Origin: Janthinobacterium psychrotolerans
GTDB lineage: Bacteria; Pseudomonadota; Gammaproteobacteria; Burkholderiales; Burkholderiaceae_D
DNA: 64,000 nt
Assembly (NCBI RefSeq): GCF_001677885.1
Contig: NZ_LOCQ01000059.1
Coordinates: forward strand, 186,001-250,000
Direction: 5' to 3'
Shown here: piece by piece, positions 57,313-63,789 of the stretch
How the letters are laid out: the number at the start of each line of letters is the position of its first letter
How positions within the stretch are numbered: position 1 is the first letter of the stretch
Notes under the pieces: model-generated
Database searches by the model: none
Seen by the model: only the letters and a program-made list of their open reading frames with translations
What the model was told of the DNA's origin: nothing
Program-made: the position numbers and the translations under genes

Positions 57313-57510
57313 CTCTCGGCGCAAGCCGGTCGGCGTGACAGAAGCGTTGCCGGCAGGCGCCCGGACTGGTGTCGACCAGGCGCCGGAAATGCCGGCGCAG
57401 CGATTCTTCCGAACCAAAACCGGCCAGCTCGGCCACCTGCGCCATCGGCGTGGCGGGCGACTCCTGCAAGTCCCTGGCCAGCGCCACCCGTTCGCGTATC
57501 AACCAGCTGC
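57296..57510 (-). pseudogene. 5'-truncated AraC-family regulator
   Basis: The frame encodes the second HTH of a GlxA-type AraC regulator: SWLIRERVALARDLQE, then VAELAGFGSEESLRRHFRRLVDTSPGACRQRF. The amidase-like N-terminal domain and the first HTH are gone; upstream of about 57510 the frame loses any family resemblance and runs into the end of the dynamin gene (57565). This looks like a gene whose 5' part was replaced when the neighbouring cassette arrived. Confidence 0.75.
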
Positions 57511-57564
57511 AATGAAGGTTTTTACTTAAAACTGCCTCCACCGGTCTGCCGAGAGCATGACGAG

Positions 57565-59265
57565 CTACATGGCCGAAAATTCCACGTCGATCGCTTCGCC
57601 GGTCATGCGCCACGCATGGAATTTCTCTCGCTGCTGCTGACGTTGCGCAACATCCTTGCGCACCGCCTCGACATCGCCGACCAGTGTCACGTAGTCGCTG
57701 AAAAAAGTTTCATTAAACGCGGGATCGTCAATCAGGGAAAGCAGCTCAGCACGCTGCTGCCCGAAGTTGGCGACCATGGTCGCGCGCAGCTTCGTGAACT
57801 GTTCCTGGCGTTTGGCCTGCTCCAGGCTGTCCCATGCTTCCAATGCCAGCCCGGCAATGGCAAATACGCCATTGATATTTTTGGCAAGATTCGATGCGCC
57901 CCATGGCTTGAACTTCAGGTATTTACCCAGATCCAATCCCACCATGTTACCGATGTTAACCAAGCCGTCACGCGCACCAAGAACACTCTTATTGTTGATC
58001 AAATTATTACTACGCACATAATCGATACCCTGCTTGCCATACTGTTTGATCATGCCGTTGAAATGACTGACTTCGGAGTCAAACCCGATTTGTATCTTGC
58101 TCACTTCAAGCGCGGCCGATTTCAGAGTACGCTGGAAAATGTTTTTCAGCCGTTCGGACACGATAATACCTTCGCTGCCGACCTCACGTTCAAAAAATTC
58201 GCCTGCTGTTTCCATCGTCACACCTTGGGCCTGCAGGATAAGGTCTGAAAAATACTCAAGAACTGAAGCCCGCAGGCGAACCTTGGCATCGACGATCTTG
58301 CCATCTGTAACGGCAAGCTGTTTCTTCAGACTCAGGTTCATGTCTTCCAAACGGGCCAGTTCCGCCGCCAACTTTTCATCGGTGGCCACAGCAATCGGCA
58401 TTTGCCGGGTCAGCACGTCGCGGATGATGCTCTTCCTAGTTTCGTCGGCGATTGCGACGGCCCCGCCATTGGCCTTGATTTTTTCGGATGTTGCTGCCTG
58501 CAAGGTGGCGATGTGCGAGAGCGCCTTGAATTGTTCCAGGTGGCCCAGCCAGTGATTGACGCCCATATCGAAGGGATTGGCTGCTACGCCGACGATGGCC
58601 AGCGCGGACGATTCTTCCGCAGTCAGCCCGATCAGCTCAGTCAGCCGGCTGACCACACTGGCACGTTTGATTGACAGGCTTTGCTTGTGTTCCTCGACAT
58701 CGGCCACATCGGCCACTTCATCGAAGCGGCTCAGCACAAAAATTGTGCGAGGCAACAGGTTCAGCGTACGGAACAACCACCCCAGATCATCCTGATGGCT
58801 TTCCTTGATCGGATTGACCGGATTCATTACGTACAACACGAGGTGCGCCTCGCTGACGTATTTCTTGGTGATGTCCTTGTATTTTTCGATCGCTTGCGTG
58901 TCGGCGTTAATTTGCTCCTTGAATCCGAACAGCCCAGGCGTGTCTATCAGTTCAAAACCCGCGCCCACATCATAAATCACCACTTCGTTCGACGACTCGC
59001 GGTGACTGATTTTCATGCTTGCCTTGTCCAGTTGCTCCATCCAGGCAGCGGCAATCGAGGTTTTGCCTTCCGAAAAACCGCCAACCAGCGCAATCCTCAG
59101 CTTGTCACCAGAAACACTCTGCAGTGCGGTTTCAAGCTTGTTCCGGGTATTTTCTTCGATCTCGACGCCCGCTTCCCGGCCTTGCTGCAAAAATGCCTGC
59201 AGTTTCTGCAAAATCAGCAGCGCTTGTGCCTTTTTTGTTTGGAATGCATCCAAAGTAGTTTCCAT
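57565..59265 (-). CDS. LeoA-like dynamin-family GTPase
   Basis: A 566-aa large GTPase resembling LeoA, the bacterial dynamin of enterotoxigenic E. coli, in size and in the unusual P-loop GGFSEGKTS (residues 62-70). G3 is DTPG (108-111), and the G4 position reads SRFD (179-182) instead of TKxD. A long helical region follows (about 280-480), and a hydrophobic stretch near NINGVFAIAGLALEAW could be the membrane-binding tip. It overlaps the preceding GTPase gene by one base (TAATG). Dynamin-like pairs act on membranes; roles in toxin vesicle release and phage resistance have been reported for relatives. Confidence 0.82.
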   Translation of the reverse strand: METTLDAFQTKKAQALLILQKLQAFLQQGREAGVEIEENTRNKLETALQSVSGDKLRIALVGGFSEGKTSIAAAWMEQLDKASMKISHRESSNEVVIYDVGAGFELIDTPGLFGFKEQINADTQAIEKYKDITKKYVSEAHLVLYVMNPVNPIKESHQDDLGWLFRTLNLLPRTIFVLSRFDEVADVADVEEHKQSLSIKRASVVSRLTELIGLTAEESSALAIVGVAANPFDMGVNHWLGHLEQFKALSHIATLQAATSEKIKANGGAVAIADETRKSIIRDVLTRQMPIAVATDEKLAAELARLEDMNLSLKKQLAVTDGKIVDAKVRLRASVLEYFSDLILQAQGVTMETAGEFFEREVGSEGIIVSERLKNIFQRTLKSAALEVSKIQIGFDSEVSHFNGMIKQYGKQGIDYVRSNNLINNKSVLGARDGLVNIGNMVGLDLGKYLKFKPWGASNLAKNINGVFAIAGLALEAWDSLEQAKRQEQFTKLRATMVANFGQQRAELLSLIDDPAFNETFFSDYVTLVGDVEAVRKDVAQRQQQREKFHAWRMTGEAIDVEFSAM

Positions 59266-61463
59266 TATGTAGACGCCTTTTCAATGTTGTGTGACATGGT
59301 TTTCAATTTGATTTCTGATTCGCTCAACACAAGGATGATGCCATCGACTTGCTTGACCGGTTGCCTGACCGCCGACTTCAGCGCGCTCATCTTTTCCTCA
59401 AGTTGTGGCCATGCCTCCCCCAGACTTTCGTCCAAGGACTGGCGCAGCTTGCGCACGACTTTTGACAAGTTTTCGGACACGGCCTTGCGCTGTTGCGCCA
59501 TTTTGTAGTCCTTGCTGAAAAAACCAGCGACCGACTTGGCGACACTTACCAAAGCCGTCACCGCGCCAACGGCCACTATGGCCCAGCCGGCAGGATTCCA
59601 GAATGTCAACGCGATACCCACTACGGCACCAATCAGGCCTGCCACCTTGATGCCATTGTCGATATCGACTTTCAGTCTGAATTTGCGGTCTGCGCCCTTG
59701 ATCTGTACATTGCCGTAGGCGTCGAACAACTCCTGCGCAAATTCATGGAAACGCTCGATCACCTCCCTGGTCTCGTCCTGGAAACGCGCCACCTCTTCCT
59801 GCAACAGGCTGGAAAACTGCAGGACCAACTTTTCTTGCCCGTCTCTGATGCTCATCTCAAGCATGTCCCTGAAATCATCGTTATCGATGCCGTCCTTGAT
59901 TTCACTGTCGGTGGTGCGGCGTACCTCGCTACTGAAATTACTGATGACATCCTCGCAACGCGCATCGAGCTGGCTTCTCAGACCGTTGAAAGCCAGTTCC
60001 AGCTGCTGCTCTGCCTGATCCGCATCCTTGTTCAACTTCACGCGAAGTGGCCGGAAGGAGCTACGCAGCAACTCGTCCACCTTGGCGCCGGCTTGCCTGA
60101 CCACCTGACTGGCCTTGTTGAAGTTTGAACGGATAATTTTCTGCCGATAATCGCGCACCATCTCGACCGTCAACAATTGCTGGAATGCGCGAACCCCGGA
60201 TTTTTCAAGCAATTGTGCACGGCTGTAATCAGACAGGAACTTGGCCTGGCTTTTTGCGTGGGGAGATTCAGGGACCAGGCAACTGGCCGCAGCCAGGAAA
60301 GCTGGCTGGGCACTCAACGTCACCGTACGGGCGTAGTTTTTGCCAAGATACTCGAACATTTTCTTGTCCAGGTCATCGAGGCTGCCCTGTTCATCATCGG
60401 AGACCAGGCTGGCTTTCTGCAAGGCTACCGGGTTGGTCAGCCGTTTGTTGAACAGCGTCCAGACTTCGGTTTGTGCGTTCAGGTGTTCCTGAATTTTTTC
60501 CAGCGTTCCCTTGTTGCCAGCATCGCCTTGTTGCGGTGGCGCAGCCTTGCTCGTCACGTAAAACACCGCATGCGCCGTTTTCACGGCAGAGAGTATACTG
60601 TTTATCACCGCGCTTTCATGGCCTTCGATACCGGGCACGTCCAGTAAGGCAAATTGCTGCCCGTGAGCGACAAAGTCATAACGTTGCGTTGTACGGGTGA
60701 AATCGGCGCGCCCGTCGCCAATAATCGCGCCATCTGCCGTCGCAGCCAACTGCCCCATCGATTCATGCGCGCGTTTCTCGGCGTGGACAGTTGCATCTGC
60801 TTGCTGTCGGGCATCTGCCTGGCGTTTTTGCAATTGTGCCAATGCCTGTGCTTGTTCCGCCTGATGGGCGCCAACAGCTGCGGTGAGCTGGGCATGCTCT
60901 TTCTCTTCAGAAAGTTTGGAAAACAACTGGACGAATTTCTGCCACAACGAGGCCTGCTGCTTGAGTTCAGCGACTGTGCGTGCCAATTTGTCGCGCTGCG
61001 CCAACAAGCCAGCTTGCTTGTTGCCGGCCTCCTGCTGCAATGTCAAATGCTCTTGTTCCAGCTGCGTGATGATCTGCGTCGCCTGGGTCACTGCCACCGA
61101 CAACTGCGCCAGATCGGCAGGAGTAATACCGAGCTTTGCCTGCAACTCCTTGAAGTCCTGTTGCTGCTGCAATTTACCTTTCTCATTCAGCAAGATCCTG
61201 AGTGTCTCGATCACGGTTGACTTGCCCGCATTCGTTTCACCGTACAACGCAATGGTGAAGGTCTGCCATTCGGCATTGCCATCAAGCTCGGCCAAATTGG
61301 TTTGCAACTGGTCGAGCATTACGTTCAGTTGCCCGACACCTTCCTCGCGAGCCTTTTCCAGCGCCGCATCCCCGGCAGGATGGTTCAGGCTGCTAATAAG
61401 TCCCTTTATCTGCTTGCTTACGGCACTGAAAATATCTTTTGGGTTCGGTAAATCAAGACTCAT
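59265..61463 (-). CDS. Partner dynamin-like GTPase, LeoB/LeoC-like
   Basis: A 732-aa large GTPase. P-loop GETNAGKST at 75-83; G3 DVPG at 275-278. Between them lies an unusual insertion of about 140 residues that is almost entirely coiled coil (Gln/Glu/Ala-rich, about 95-235). The C-terminal half is helical and contains a hydrophobic double segment (VAGLIGAVVGIALTFW, GWAIVAVGAVTALVSVA), a probable membrane-insertion paddle. The ATG at 61463 has AAGGA 8 nt upstream. It is translationally coupled to the LeoA-like gene, so the two probably form a hetero-oligomer. Alternative: an unrelated dynamin subfamily. Confidence 0.8.
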   Translation of the reverse strand: MSLDLPNPKDIFSAVSKQIKGLISSLNHPAGDAALEKAREEGVGQLNVMLDQLQTNLAELDGNAEWQTFTIALYGETNAGKSTVIETLRILLNEKGKLQQQQDFKELQAKLGITPADLAQLSVAVTQATQIITQLEQEHLTLQQEAGNKQAGLLAQRDKLARTVAELKQQASLWQKFVQLFSKLSEEKEHAQLTAAVGAHQAEQAQALAQLQKRQADARQQADATVHAEKRAHESMGQLAATADGAIIGDGRADFTRTTQRYDFVAHGQQFALLDVPGIEGHESAVINSILSAVKTAHAVFYVTSKAAPPQQGDAGNKGTLEKIQEHLNAQTEVWTLFNKRLTNPVALQKASLVSDDEQGSLDDLDKKMFEYLGKNYARTVTLSAQPAFLAAASCLVPESPHAKSQAKFLSDYSRAQLLEKSGVRAFQQLLTVEMVRDYRQKIIRSNFNKASQVVRQAGAKVDELLRSSFRPLRVKLNKDADQAEQQLELAFNGLRSQLDARCEDVISNFSSEVRRTTDSEIKDGIDNDDFRDMLEMSIRDGQEKLVLQFSSLLQEEVARFQDETREVIERFHEFAQELFDAYGNVQIKGADRKFRLKVDIDNGIKVAGLIGAVVGIALTFWNPAGWAIVAVGAVTALVSVAKSVAGFFSKDYKMAQQRKAVSENLSKVVRKLRQSLDESLGEAWPQLEEKMSALKSAVRQPVKQVDGIILVLSESEIKLKTMSHNIEKAST

Positions 61464-61506
61464 CTTTTCGTCCTTTAGATCAACATGCCACATCATGCGG
61501 CAACTA

Positions 61507-61523
61507 GCGACAATAGCTGTCGC
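61507..61523. promoter_or_regulatory. Palindrome upstream of the dynamin gene pair
   Basis: GCGACA (61507-61512) and TGTCGC (61518-61523) with a 5-bp spacer lie in the 79-bp gap between the WYL regulator stop and the first GTPase start. It may be an operator for the WYL protein or a hairpin in a joint transcript. The same hexamers also occur in the hairpin at 55969-55985, which weakens the operator reading. Confidence 0.4.
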
Positions 61524-61542
61524 AGCAATATTATTTGGAAAA

Positions 61543-62550
61543 TCAGTGATAGGCGTCCACCATCAGGCGCGCTGTCTCGGCCATCTCACTACGCAACGTC
61601 GCCGGTTCAAGCACCTCGACGCTGGCGCCGAAGCCCAGCAGCCACCAGCGCAGCGCCTGCGTATTGGGCACGGTTGCGCGCAGTACCAACGAGCCATTTT
61701 CTGCCCGCTCCAAGGTTTGCTCGGCATGTATCGGTGTTTCATACAAGTGAGCGCCTGCCGTGCTGGAGAAGATTGCATGCAGCATTAGCGGAGTTCCGCT
61801 CACGATGCCGAAGTGGCCCGCCGCAATATATGCGTCGAGATTGAAATCAGGGCATGTGCGAGCAGATTCGTAGCGCCGTTCGGCGTGTACGATGCGGTGC
61901 AGGGCCAGCATGCGGATGTCGGTGTATTCGGCAAACATGCATATCAGGTAAAGCACGCCAGCCCGTTCGGCAATTGCCAGTGGATGGACGACGGGATAGG
62001 TAACCGCCCTGGTGGCATCGCGTCGCCGGTAGCTGAGCATAAGCTGGCAATCCTGCATCAGTGCTTCGTACACGATATCGCGCGACGCTTCATCTAGCAC
62101 CGGCGGCAATAGCGGCAACATCGACGGAATGTGACGTATCTTATCCAGCCACGCATTGGAAGACAGGGCATCTCCTGCCGTGGCCAGGGTGCGCGCGGCA
62201 GCTGCGAAATGCGGGCGCAAAGCGTGTGCCGTGTGCGGTGGCAACTGGTGGTGCAGATGCTGCTCTACCAGTTTGAGGGTCAGCGCTTCGGGTATGGTAA
62301 CGCCAGGAATGCTGAAGGATGGCGCATCACGCCGCCAACTCCAGCCAAAAGGTTTGTCACGGTCATCGACTTCAAGTGCAAATACCTCACGCAAGGCTTG
62401 CAGATCACGTTGTACAGTACGCACAGTAACTACGTAGCCAAGATTTTTCAAGCGCAAGCAAATGTTTTCTACCGACTCCTTGCTGGGTGCCCGTGGAATA
62501 TCCTGGAGCATGTGCCAATGACGTAACAATGACTGCTGATTCGTTGCCAC
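61543..62550 (-). CDS. WYL-domain transcriptional regulator
   Basis: A 335-aa regulator with an N-terminal winged HTH (about 1-75; LKNLGYVVTVRTVQRDLQALREVFALE), a WYL domain (about 150-225; RDIVYEALMQDCQLMLSYRRRD, VHPLAIAERAGVLYLICMF, LHRIVHAERR) and a C-terminal WCX extension (ETPIHAEQTLERAENGSLVL...WWLLGFG). WYL proteins sense nucleic-acid or nucleotide ligands and often control phage-defence genes. It lies directly upstream of the two dynamin genes on the same strand and is their likely regulator. Its upstream gap (62551-62802) is strongly A/T-rich at 62580-62660 and probably holds the promoter. Confidence 0.9.
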   Translation of the reverse strand: MATNQQSLLRHWHMLQDIPRAPSKESVENICLRLKNLGYVVTVRTVQRDLQALREVFALEVDDRDKPFGWSWRRDAPSFSIPGVTIPEALTLKLVEQHLHHQLPPHTAHALRPHFAAAARTLATAGDALSSNAWLDKIRHIPSMLPLLPPVLDEASRDIVYEALMQDCQLMLSYRRRDATRAVTYPVVHPLAIAERAGVLYLICMFAEYTDIRMLALHRIVHAERRYESARTCPDFNLDAYIAAGHFGIVSGTPLMLHAIFSSTAGAHLYETPIHAEQTLERAENGSLVLRATVPNTQALRWWLLGFGASVEVLEPATLRSEMAETARLMVDAYH

Positions 62551-62802
62551 GAAAGTTCCTTTTGCTTTTAGACTAACGCGGCATTTTATTTCCTACGGGA
62601 ATTTTTAGAAAGAGCTAAACAATATTTATTTATTTAGAACTAATATGGACAACTTTTTTCGTGTTCTATTGGAAGATGTGGCACTTTCAACGAACACAGC
62701 TGAAACGCTCCGGCATTGACAGATATGACTGATGCGACCATCACGCAATGATCTCCTCCTGCGCCCAGCACAAGCGCCGCAGGCAGCCATGAGATAATCG
62801 AA

Positions 62803-63789
62803 TTACAACCACCCTTCGCGCTTGAGCCGCCGGTGCAGGAAATAACAACCCGCCACGATCACCGCCATCACCGCCGGATAGCCGCCGCGCCACTTCAGCT
62901 CGGGCATGAACTCGAAGTTCATGCCGTACAGGCTGAACACCATGGTCGGCACGGCCAGGATGCCGGCCCAGGCGGCCAGACGCTTGACCACTTCGTTCTG
63001 GCGGATCGAGATCTGGCCCAGCGCCACCTGCATGGCGGCGTTGACCATTTCGCGCATCTGGTTGGCGGTGTGCGTGACCCGTTTGACGTGATCGAGAATG
63101 TCGCGGTAATAGATGCGGTTTTCCTTGGGAACGATATCGCCATGAAAACGAATCAGCTGGGTGCAGATTTCATGCAGCGGGTTGACGGCCGCGTCGAGTT
63201 TGAGCAGTTCGGTTTTCAGCTGGTAAAAATCCTGCAGCTTGTCTTCGTTCAGGCTGGGCTTGAACAACTGGGTTTCATATTGCTGGAACTTGGCCTGCAG
63301 CATGTCGATGCAGGGCTGGTACTGGTCGACGATAAAATCGATGATGGAATACAGCACGTAACCGGGGCCGCTGGCCAGTTTCTCGGGCACGGTTTCCTTG
63401 CGCTCGCGCAGCTTGGCGTAGCCGGCCGAGGGGCCATGGCGAACGGTAATGATGAAGCGGCAGCCCAGGAACACATGGGTTTCGCCGTAGACGATGGCCT
63501 GGCCGTCCAGGCTGGCCGTGTGCATCACCATGAACAAAGTGTCGCCGTATTCTTCCAGCTTGGGCCGCTCGTGCGCGCCTTCGGCGTCTTCCACCGCCAG
63601 CTCGTGCAGGCCGAAGGCCGTTTGCAAGGCCTGCATGGCGGCGCTGTCGGGGCCGGCCAGGCCGATCCACACAAAACAATCGGGATCGCCGAGAAAATCG
63701 CCGACCTTGTCGATGTCGAAGTGGGCGAGTTTCTTGCCGTGACGATAGGCTTCGCAATTGACGACGGCGGCGTGCTGACTCAAGTCCAT
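62803..63789 (-). CDS. corA: CorA family magnesium/divalent cation transporter
   Basis: A 328-aa CorA-type channel: large cytoplasmic N-terminal domain (1-265), a long stalk helix, and two C-terminal membrane helices with the selectivity motif GMN (LYGMNFEFMPEL) between them and a basic tail (HRRLKREGWL). Pentameric magnesium uptake is the standard role; cobalt or nickel transport is possible. It borders the dynamin cassette on the right and resumes the G+C-rich composition of the rest of the window. The 211 bp upstream to the window end are A/T-rich without a recognised gene. Confidence 0.93.
   Translation of the reverse strand: MDLSQHAAVVNCEAYRHGKKLAHFDIDKVGDFLGDPDCFVWIGLAGPDSAAMQALQTAFGLHELAVEDAEGAHERPKLEEYGDTLFMVMHTASLDGQAIVYGETHVFLGCRFIITVRHGPSAGYAKLRERKETVPEKLASGPGYVLYSIIDFIVDQYQPCIDMLQAKFQQYETQLFKPSLNEDKLQDFYQLKTELLKLDAAVNPLHEICTQLIRFHGDIVPKENRIYYRDILDHVKRVTHTANQMREMVNAAMQVALGQISIRQNEVVKRLAAWAGILAVPTMVFSLYGMNFEFMPELKWRGGYPAVMAVIVAGCYFLHRRLKREGWL

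Follow-up and report, generated by a model that had tools for sequence, protein, structure and literature searches.

A probable WYL-regulated LeoBC-LeoA dynamin pair of the Eleos/'Dynamins' defence type beside corA in Janthinobacterium psychrotolerans

The window analysed here is a stretch of 64,000 nucleotides of Janthinobacterium psychrotolerans (contig NZ_LOCQ01000059.1, positions 186,001 to 250,000), and our subject is a cassette of three genes on its minus strand, at 57565-62550, that encodes a WYL-domain regulator followed by two dynamin-like GTPases. We propose that this cassette probably encodes a LeoBC-LeoA pair of the Eleos/'Dynamins' defence type under the control of the WYL protein, and that it came to its place next to corA through allelic replacement. 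Phage defence is its likely, predicted function and the best reading of the cassette, because the WYL-LeoBC-LeoA order recurs and because related pairs are found on viral contigs, on plasmids and beside restriction genes. The cassette is thus a new member of a known system, and the parts worth specialist attention are a helical hairpin in LeoBC and a hydrolase fusion found in relatives on viral contigs.

The preliminary description of this DNA, made from the letters alone, had recognised a WYL regulator and two dynamin-like GTPases, and this holds: the three open reading frames (ORFs; Table 1) are intact, in the source genome as in the second Janthinobacterium carrier, G092, and each matches its family. 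The smaller GTPase reaches 688.5 bits with the NCBIfam model NF041922 (cutoff 325), 546 bits with the PADLOC LeoA model and 382 bits with Pfam DLP_helical, matches the solved LeoA structure 4aur in the PDB with an E-value of 7.6e-58, and carries the GTPase motifs GGFSEGKT, DTPG and SRFD in a motif scan. The larger one matches the PADLOC LeoBC model (501.6 bits) over residues 12-741 of its 743-residue reading, and Pfam Dynamin_N with 25.3 bits, slightly below the cutoff of that model (27). Its motifs are GETNAGKS, in a P-loop in which nearly every position is invariant in a four-sequence alignment, and DVPG; the G4 pattern with aspartate is unmatched, NKR standing in its place. We favour the ATG at 61463 over that at 61496 as its start, giving 732 instead of 743 residues, because in G092 the ATGs further upstream are in another frame. 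The one-base overlap between LeoBC and LeoA is confirmed (TAATG), and the membrane-insertion segment announced for the larger GTPase corresponds to its most hydrophobic stretch, residues 624-646 of 732, at the paddle position (top 19-residue hydropathy 1.98, at 628-646). The regulator has both WYL and WCX domains above the Pfam cutoffs. On these profile matches the cassette is a member of the catalogued candidate defence type called 'Dynamins' in PADLOC, alias Eleos. Eleos is the DefenseFinder name of this type, which was reportedly first described by Millman et al. 2022.

The cassette stands where native genes are found in its relatives. In G570, the closest relative at this site (about 92-93% DNA identity), corA (a name that is our reading of the sequence) is followed by four genes. 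They encode a protein of 176 residues, two proteins that by eye resemble GNAT and rhodanese, respectively, and a complete ftrA-like regulator of 328 residues. The window's homology with G570 stops at 57509 and at 62803, and we therefore conclude on replacement, not clean insertion. The junctions are accordingly at 57509/57510 and at 62802/62803, where 62803 is the last base of corA, and those drawn from a second relative, G584, agree within two bases (57507 and 62804). The ftrA-like gene is still whole in both relatives; its 3' remnant in the window is the broken gene reported earlier, and the ORF that holds it scores 59.4 bits with the NCBIfam FtrA model, below the cutoff of 425. From these alignments, a block of about 5.3 kb replaced about 2.4 kb (about four genes), leaving the 3' end of the ftrA-like gene. 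The block is, as had been said, richer in A/T than its flanks, with a GC content of 0.535 over 57510-62802 against 0.618-0.665 in windows of equal size on the left and 0.642-0.661 on the right (ten, beyond corA); corA itself is at 0.599. Horizontal acquisition is thus supported by the replacement junctions and by the sporadic occurrence, but not in the form of a clean insertion. An insertion at a tRNA was rejected, as the window contains no tRNA and the relatives show replacement. G092 has the cassette too (76% DNA identity); there, as in the window, it adjoins corA directly, while the opposite flank differs. This common position would fit an exchange between Janthinobacterium strains via corA, but a comparison of corA in blocks of 100 bases reveals no clear tract of recombination. 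Predicted promoters and terminators are near chance (5 found for 3.2 expected, and 7 for 6.4, respectively).

The regulator recurs with the pair. In 4 of 11 loci, from three lineages (Janthinobacterium twice, the IMG/VR contig L081 and the Chryseobacterium plasmid L112), the gene immediately upstream of LeoBC is a WYL gene on the same strand, which suggests that one version of the system includes the regulator. The count covers viewed records only, other plasmid and E. coli records being outside it: the window, G092, L037, L041, L042, L075, L080, L081, L082, L083 and L112 were judged, and L084 (partial), L076 (LeoA only), L043 and L113 (interrupted) and L111 and L114 (duplicates) were left out. 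The upstream gene was judged from the annotation or, on P0013 and P0022, from ORF reading and Pfam; the tables of plasmid genes are not complete, and in L042 the judgement leaves aside a gap of some 1.6 kb on the upstream side of LeoBC. The WYL protein of L081 is 33% identical to that of the window, and that of the Chryseobacterium plasmid 26%, over a C-terminal stretch only. The window protein matches no helix-turn-helix family at E <= 1 in the Pfam scan and, as a single sequence, nothing in the PDB at E <= 0.001; a three-sequence profile gives eight weak PDB matches, to PafC and other WYL-type regulators.

Relatives of the regulator at E <= 1e-25 are present in 24 of 300 genomes of the order. 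We fetched 20 of their neighbourhoods, read the downstream ORFs by eye and scored seven downstream proteins from six neighbourhoods with PADLOC, four of them also with Pfam; since these were chosen by us, they are an illustration and not a rate. They comprise a DNA methyltransferase with a strong PADLOC match (L102), a GmrSD_N protein with 50 bits to HEC-05 (L095), two proteins with weak matches of about 30 bits to Cas4 (L092 and L094, the latter being Pfam DUF2779), and, without any PADLOC match, two proteins of L098 (Pfam MoxR-type AAA and VWA) and one of L097. The gene for the genome's own second WYL protein, 51% identical to the first (L087 9527-14754, contig C6), adjoins that of an SNF2-like helicase with 300 bits to the PADLOC candidate PDC-M27C. 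These neighbourhoods fit a guard role and prove nothing for the window cassette.

The distribution of the cassette is sporadic: own genome included, LeoA is found in 2 of 40 genomes of the genus and LeoBC in 2 of 195 of the family. The preliminary description had named a core-genome pair unlinked to WYL or defence genes as the finding that would contradict it; the pair is instead rare, and the WYL gene recurs. Further away, relatives of the pair occur in 4 of 5,426 E. coli genomes and also in Gram-positive Enterococcus, and plasmid records contain LeoBC in 9 and LeoA in 8 cases out of 72,556. Viral contigs of IMG/VR, where a single window protein matched nothing, gave LeoBC at five loci and LeoA at four, on partly shared contigs, when alignments were used as queries. 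None of 50,697 phage records matched, which rules against a phage-borne system. A Raoultella LeoA query of the phylum sample returned the own genome only (1 of 398), and the DNA of the Raoultella pair had no megablast match in E. coli. In the class sample, the PADLOC LeoBC model matched 151 of 369 genomes at E <= 1e-10, a count that we do not use; among the matches listed, all genomes but three are at or below 90 bits, and the three include G528 and G250.

Neighbours of the relatives (E. coli TC24, L081 and the Chryseobacterium plasmid) include restriction, DUF262 and integrase genes. In the two E. coli records viewed, TC24 among them, type I restriction genes and a TIR pseudogene adjoin the pair, and the plasmid of Chryseobacterium balustinum (Bacteroidota; L112 5404-10181) has WYL, LeoBC and LeoA in the order of the window, preceded by two DUF262 genes and an AAA gene. 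The conserved WYL-GTPase-GTPase order in defence islands, proposed earlier as a check, is seen in part, through the four WYL-led loci and these restriction and mobile contexts, but in other Janthinobacterium genomes the site is no evident defence island. On Raoultella and Klebsiella plasmids (L041 and L111), the pair ends a row of TerD, VWA, TerY-C, PP2C phosphatase and kinase genes. Such Ter-type stress genes, and the description of Bacillus subtilis DynA, which delays phage lysis, as membrane surveillance (PMC8844932), would suit a pair devoted to general envelope-stress repair, with antibiotics, bacteriocins or tellurite-type stress as triggers and phage as one of several. We consider this unlikely, the Ter linkage having been seen in no more than a single group of closely related plasmids and restriction, DUF262 and integrase genes being the neighbours elsewhere. 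Two further observations concern these neighbourhoods: a PD-(D/E)XK nuclease gene lies beyond LeoBC-LeoA in L041 and L111, and on a Mu-like contig (L082 6504-7961) an ORF resembling a fragment of a Cas3-type helicase, judged by eye, is directly upstream of LeoBC.

LeoBC differs from LeoA by the spacing of its GTPase motifs, the starts of G1 and G3 being 200 residues apart against 46 in LeoA. AlphaFold2, run on six sequences, fills this gap in the window protein with helices at 115-169, 173-181 and 185-247, that is, a hairpin whose ten-residue blocks mostly have a predicted local distance difference test score (pLDDT) of 77-87, with 69 at the tip and 65-68 at the ends. The longer-armed LeoBC of L080, modelled from the same six sequences, gives helices at 394-481, 484-492 and 496-595. 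The lengths of the two arms covary in ten proteins (Pearson 0.991; 72/56 once, 91/70 five times, 91/74 once, then 120/99, 122/106 and 123/106), tips having been set by us on the alignment and by eye for Chryseobacterium; the coefficient rests on few events, since six of the ten proteins have almost identical values, and the three long-armed proteins sit in different parts of the tree, where one fork is open. The tip has the highest hydrophobic moment of all 13-mers with a mean H >= 0.6 in the window LeoBC, and among six LeoBCs it ranks first also in those of Raoultella, E. coli and L082, not in those of Enterococcus and L083.

The hairpin also bears on the two-chain form of the protein. In the window protein (732-residue reading), the match to the PADLOC LeoC model runs to about residue 214 and that to the LeoB model starts near 197; in E. 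coli TC24 the corresponding positions are about 252 and 201. The two models would thus meet within the insertion or at its base, in a loosely placed split that is consistent with that of enterotoxigenic E. coli (ETEC). Michie et al. 2014 place the P-loop and switch 1 on LeoC, with 22 hydrophobic C-terminal residues, and leave the two-chain arrangement of LeoC and LeoB to speculation (PMC4159319); that placement would set the break at the base of the hairpin rather than in its middle. In the comparison genome G250 (L037 13288-15416), LeoC-like and LeoB-like parts occupy separate frames that are broken within the region of the hairpin, through either a natural split or decay. Another locus (L039 153-3986, genome G528) encodes a LeoBC-model protein of 343 bits without hairpin, followed by a P-loop protein that starts unlike LeoA; these genes are perhaps a separate dynamin pair.

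Two LeoBCs of viral contigs (L081 6659-9688 and L080 7164-10409), the only such fusions in the viral-contig scan, have about 270-280 extra N-terminal residues that form, in frame, a DUF726 alpha/beta-hydrolase domain (51.7 and 43.0 bits, respectively; cutoff 22.6). By our assignment, GHSLG with the conserved D193 and H223 could form a Ser-Asp-His triad; in the model of L080, the hydrolase portion has low confidence. Against plasmids, the domain gave one weak match (23.6%). The fusions point to an assayable effector activity. We tentatively suggest, as a possibility that we rate below even chances, that LeoBC is a dynamin with a second membrane contact, the hairpin between P-loop and switch I with its amphipathic aromatic tip, which would couple membrane binding to the GTP switch; LeoC and LeoB of ETEC could then zip through the hairpin, and the DUF726 forms would be membrane-triggered, lipid-acting effectors. 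If so, mutating the tip aromatics or shortening only one arm should abolish membrane binding or GTPase coupling with the fold kept, and the hairpin would offer a reason why LeoC and LeoB exist as two chains. Our impression from the Leo papers found, among which no word search was aimed at the hairpin, is that it seems undescribed. The literature search, mostly restricted to papers outside subscription, returned three papers that mention LeoBC and no paper that joins 'DUF726' and 'dynamin', 'Eleos' and 'LeoBC', or 'WYL domain', dynamin and defense.

Published papers group 'Dynamins' and Eleos annotations, often found together, as one system (PMC11811056), term LeoA/LeoBC dynamins anti-viral (PMC10999152), report Eleos as enriched in Rhodococcus (PMC10482375) and name it once more (PMC12915292). 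Several points weigh against a WYL-controlled defence pair with a membrane-binding hairpin. A dynamin pair on island I55 was inactive against UFV-like phages (PMC12595487) and ETEC LeoABC was linked to vesicle release (PMC4159319). No WYL gene is seen upstream in 7 of the 11 loci, so that the regulator is optional, and no inverted repeat that could serve as its operator was found upstream of WYL in the window copy. The corA locus was rejected as a defence hotspot: ordinary genes occupy it in 15 other Janthinobacterium comparison intervals, out of 20 fetched (genes called by coding score and judged by eye from their N-termini; L063, which is the carrier G092, and L068-L071, which by coordinates do not span both anchors, were excluded). 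Both LeoBC models are modest as wholes, with a mean pLDDT of 65.9 and a predicted template modelling score (pTM) of 0.41 for the window protein and 62.4 and 0.40 for L080. The insertion, called a coiled coil in the preliminary description, is indeed predicted to be helical, but a heptad periodicity of its arms was rejected, as it is not significant by shuffling (the power observed is attained in 222 and 541 of 2000 shuffles). The G528 protein, which scores 342.6 bits with the LeoBC model, lacks an insertion between P-loop and DTPG in its translation, so the hairpin is not universal among matches to this model. Finally, three of the relatives viewed look interrupted (L043, L113 and G250).

These interruptions, the position of the cassette at a replacement scar, the lack of a LeoA match in 38 of 40 genus genomes and a protein identity between LeoBC and its G092 counterpart (72%) no higher than their DNA identity (73%) could all suit a cassette that is decaying or functionless after transfer. 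We regard this as very improbable, the three frames being intact in both Janthinobacterium copies and protein identity to G092 exceeding DNA identity for LeoA (84% against 79%) and for WYL (82% against 76%). A vesicle or secretion role as proposed for ETEC LeoABC, in which the pair would serve to release outer-membrane vesicles and phage would play no part, draws on ETEC LeoA (4aur) as the closest solved relative and on the fall of vesicle cargo to about half in leoA, leoB and leoAB deletions (PMC4159319). We judge it quite improbable: as the preliminary description had noted, no toxin gene is seen by eye among the immediate neighbours, relatives sit on viral contigs, on plasmids and in a restriction island, and outer-membrane vesicles cannot be the shared job because some relatives are in Gram-positive Enterococcus.

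Under the defence reading that we prefer, we infer the following membrane mechanism. The WYL protein would hold expression of the operon down until infection, or signals derived from DNA, set in; LeoBC would bind the inner membrane through its paddle and also through the amphipathic tip of the helical hairpin of its GTPase domain; LeoA would dock on LeoBC, G-domain to G-domain; and the GTP-driven assembly on the membrane might either hold the envelope together and delay lysis, as has been reported of DynA, or disrupt it and so stop the infected cell.

Table 1. Features of the cassette and its borders (window positions)
Feature	Position	Strand	Basis or remark
WYL/WCX transcriptional regulator, 335 aa, GTG start	61543..62550	-	Pfam WYL 36.9 bits, WCX 65.1 bits
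LeoBC-type dynamin-like GTPase, 732 aa	59265..61463	-	PADLOC LeoBC 501.6 bits; ORF readable from 61496
LeoA-type dynamin-like GTPase, 566 aa	57565..59265	-	NCBIfam NF041922; PDB 4aur
LeoBC G1/P-loop GETNAGKS, residues 75-82	61218..61241	-	Motif scan
Predicted LeoBC helical hairpin insertion, residues 115-247, G1-G2 interval	60723..61121	-	AlphaFold2 and arm covariation
Amphipathic aromatic hairpin tip SLWQKFVQLFSKLS, residues 172-185	60909..60950	-	Top hydrophobic moment
LeoBC hydrophobic segment at paddle position, residues 624-646	59526..59594	-	Hydropathy maximum
A/T-rich leader upstream of WYL gene, GC 0.421	62551..62802	-	Stretch nearest WYL conserved with G092
ftrA-like AraC-family regulator gene, 3' remnant	57313..57509 (about)	-	Homology to intact G570 gene
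CorA-like native gene bordering the cassette	62803..63789	-	93% DNA identity to G570 from 62803 onward

Compared with known systems, the cassette shares with Eleos, or the PADLOC 'Dynamins', both proteins, their LeoBC-then-LeoA order and their tight coupling; here the pair is led by a WYL regulator. With ETEC LeoABC it has in common a LeoA homologous to the solved one (4aur) and a LeoBC that the PADLOC LeoC and LeoB models match in succession. It differs in that LeoB and LeoC are two chains in ETEC whereas LeoBC is here a single uninterrupted protein, in its WYL gene, and in its immediate neighbours, where no tia-type pathogenicity genes are seen. Bacillus subtilis DynA is likewise a dynamin-like protein of bacteria for which an effect on phage, the delay of lysis, has been reported; it joins two dynamins in one chain where the cassette has two genes. 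Among the best Foldseek matches of the LeoBC model are the pair 5owv and 5oxf, IniA (6j72) and SynDLP (7zw6), with E-values of about 1e-4 to 4e-2 and query TM-scores (template modelling) of 0.10-0.25; these low scores and weak E-values therefore indicate fold kinship only. The 5owv/5oxf pair is presumably from Campylobacter. Finally, a regulator with WYL and WCX domains at the head of a defence-type operon is what the cassette presumably has in common with the WYL regulators of BrxR/CapW type.

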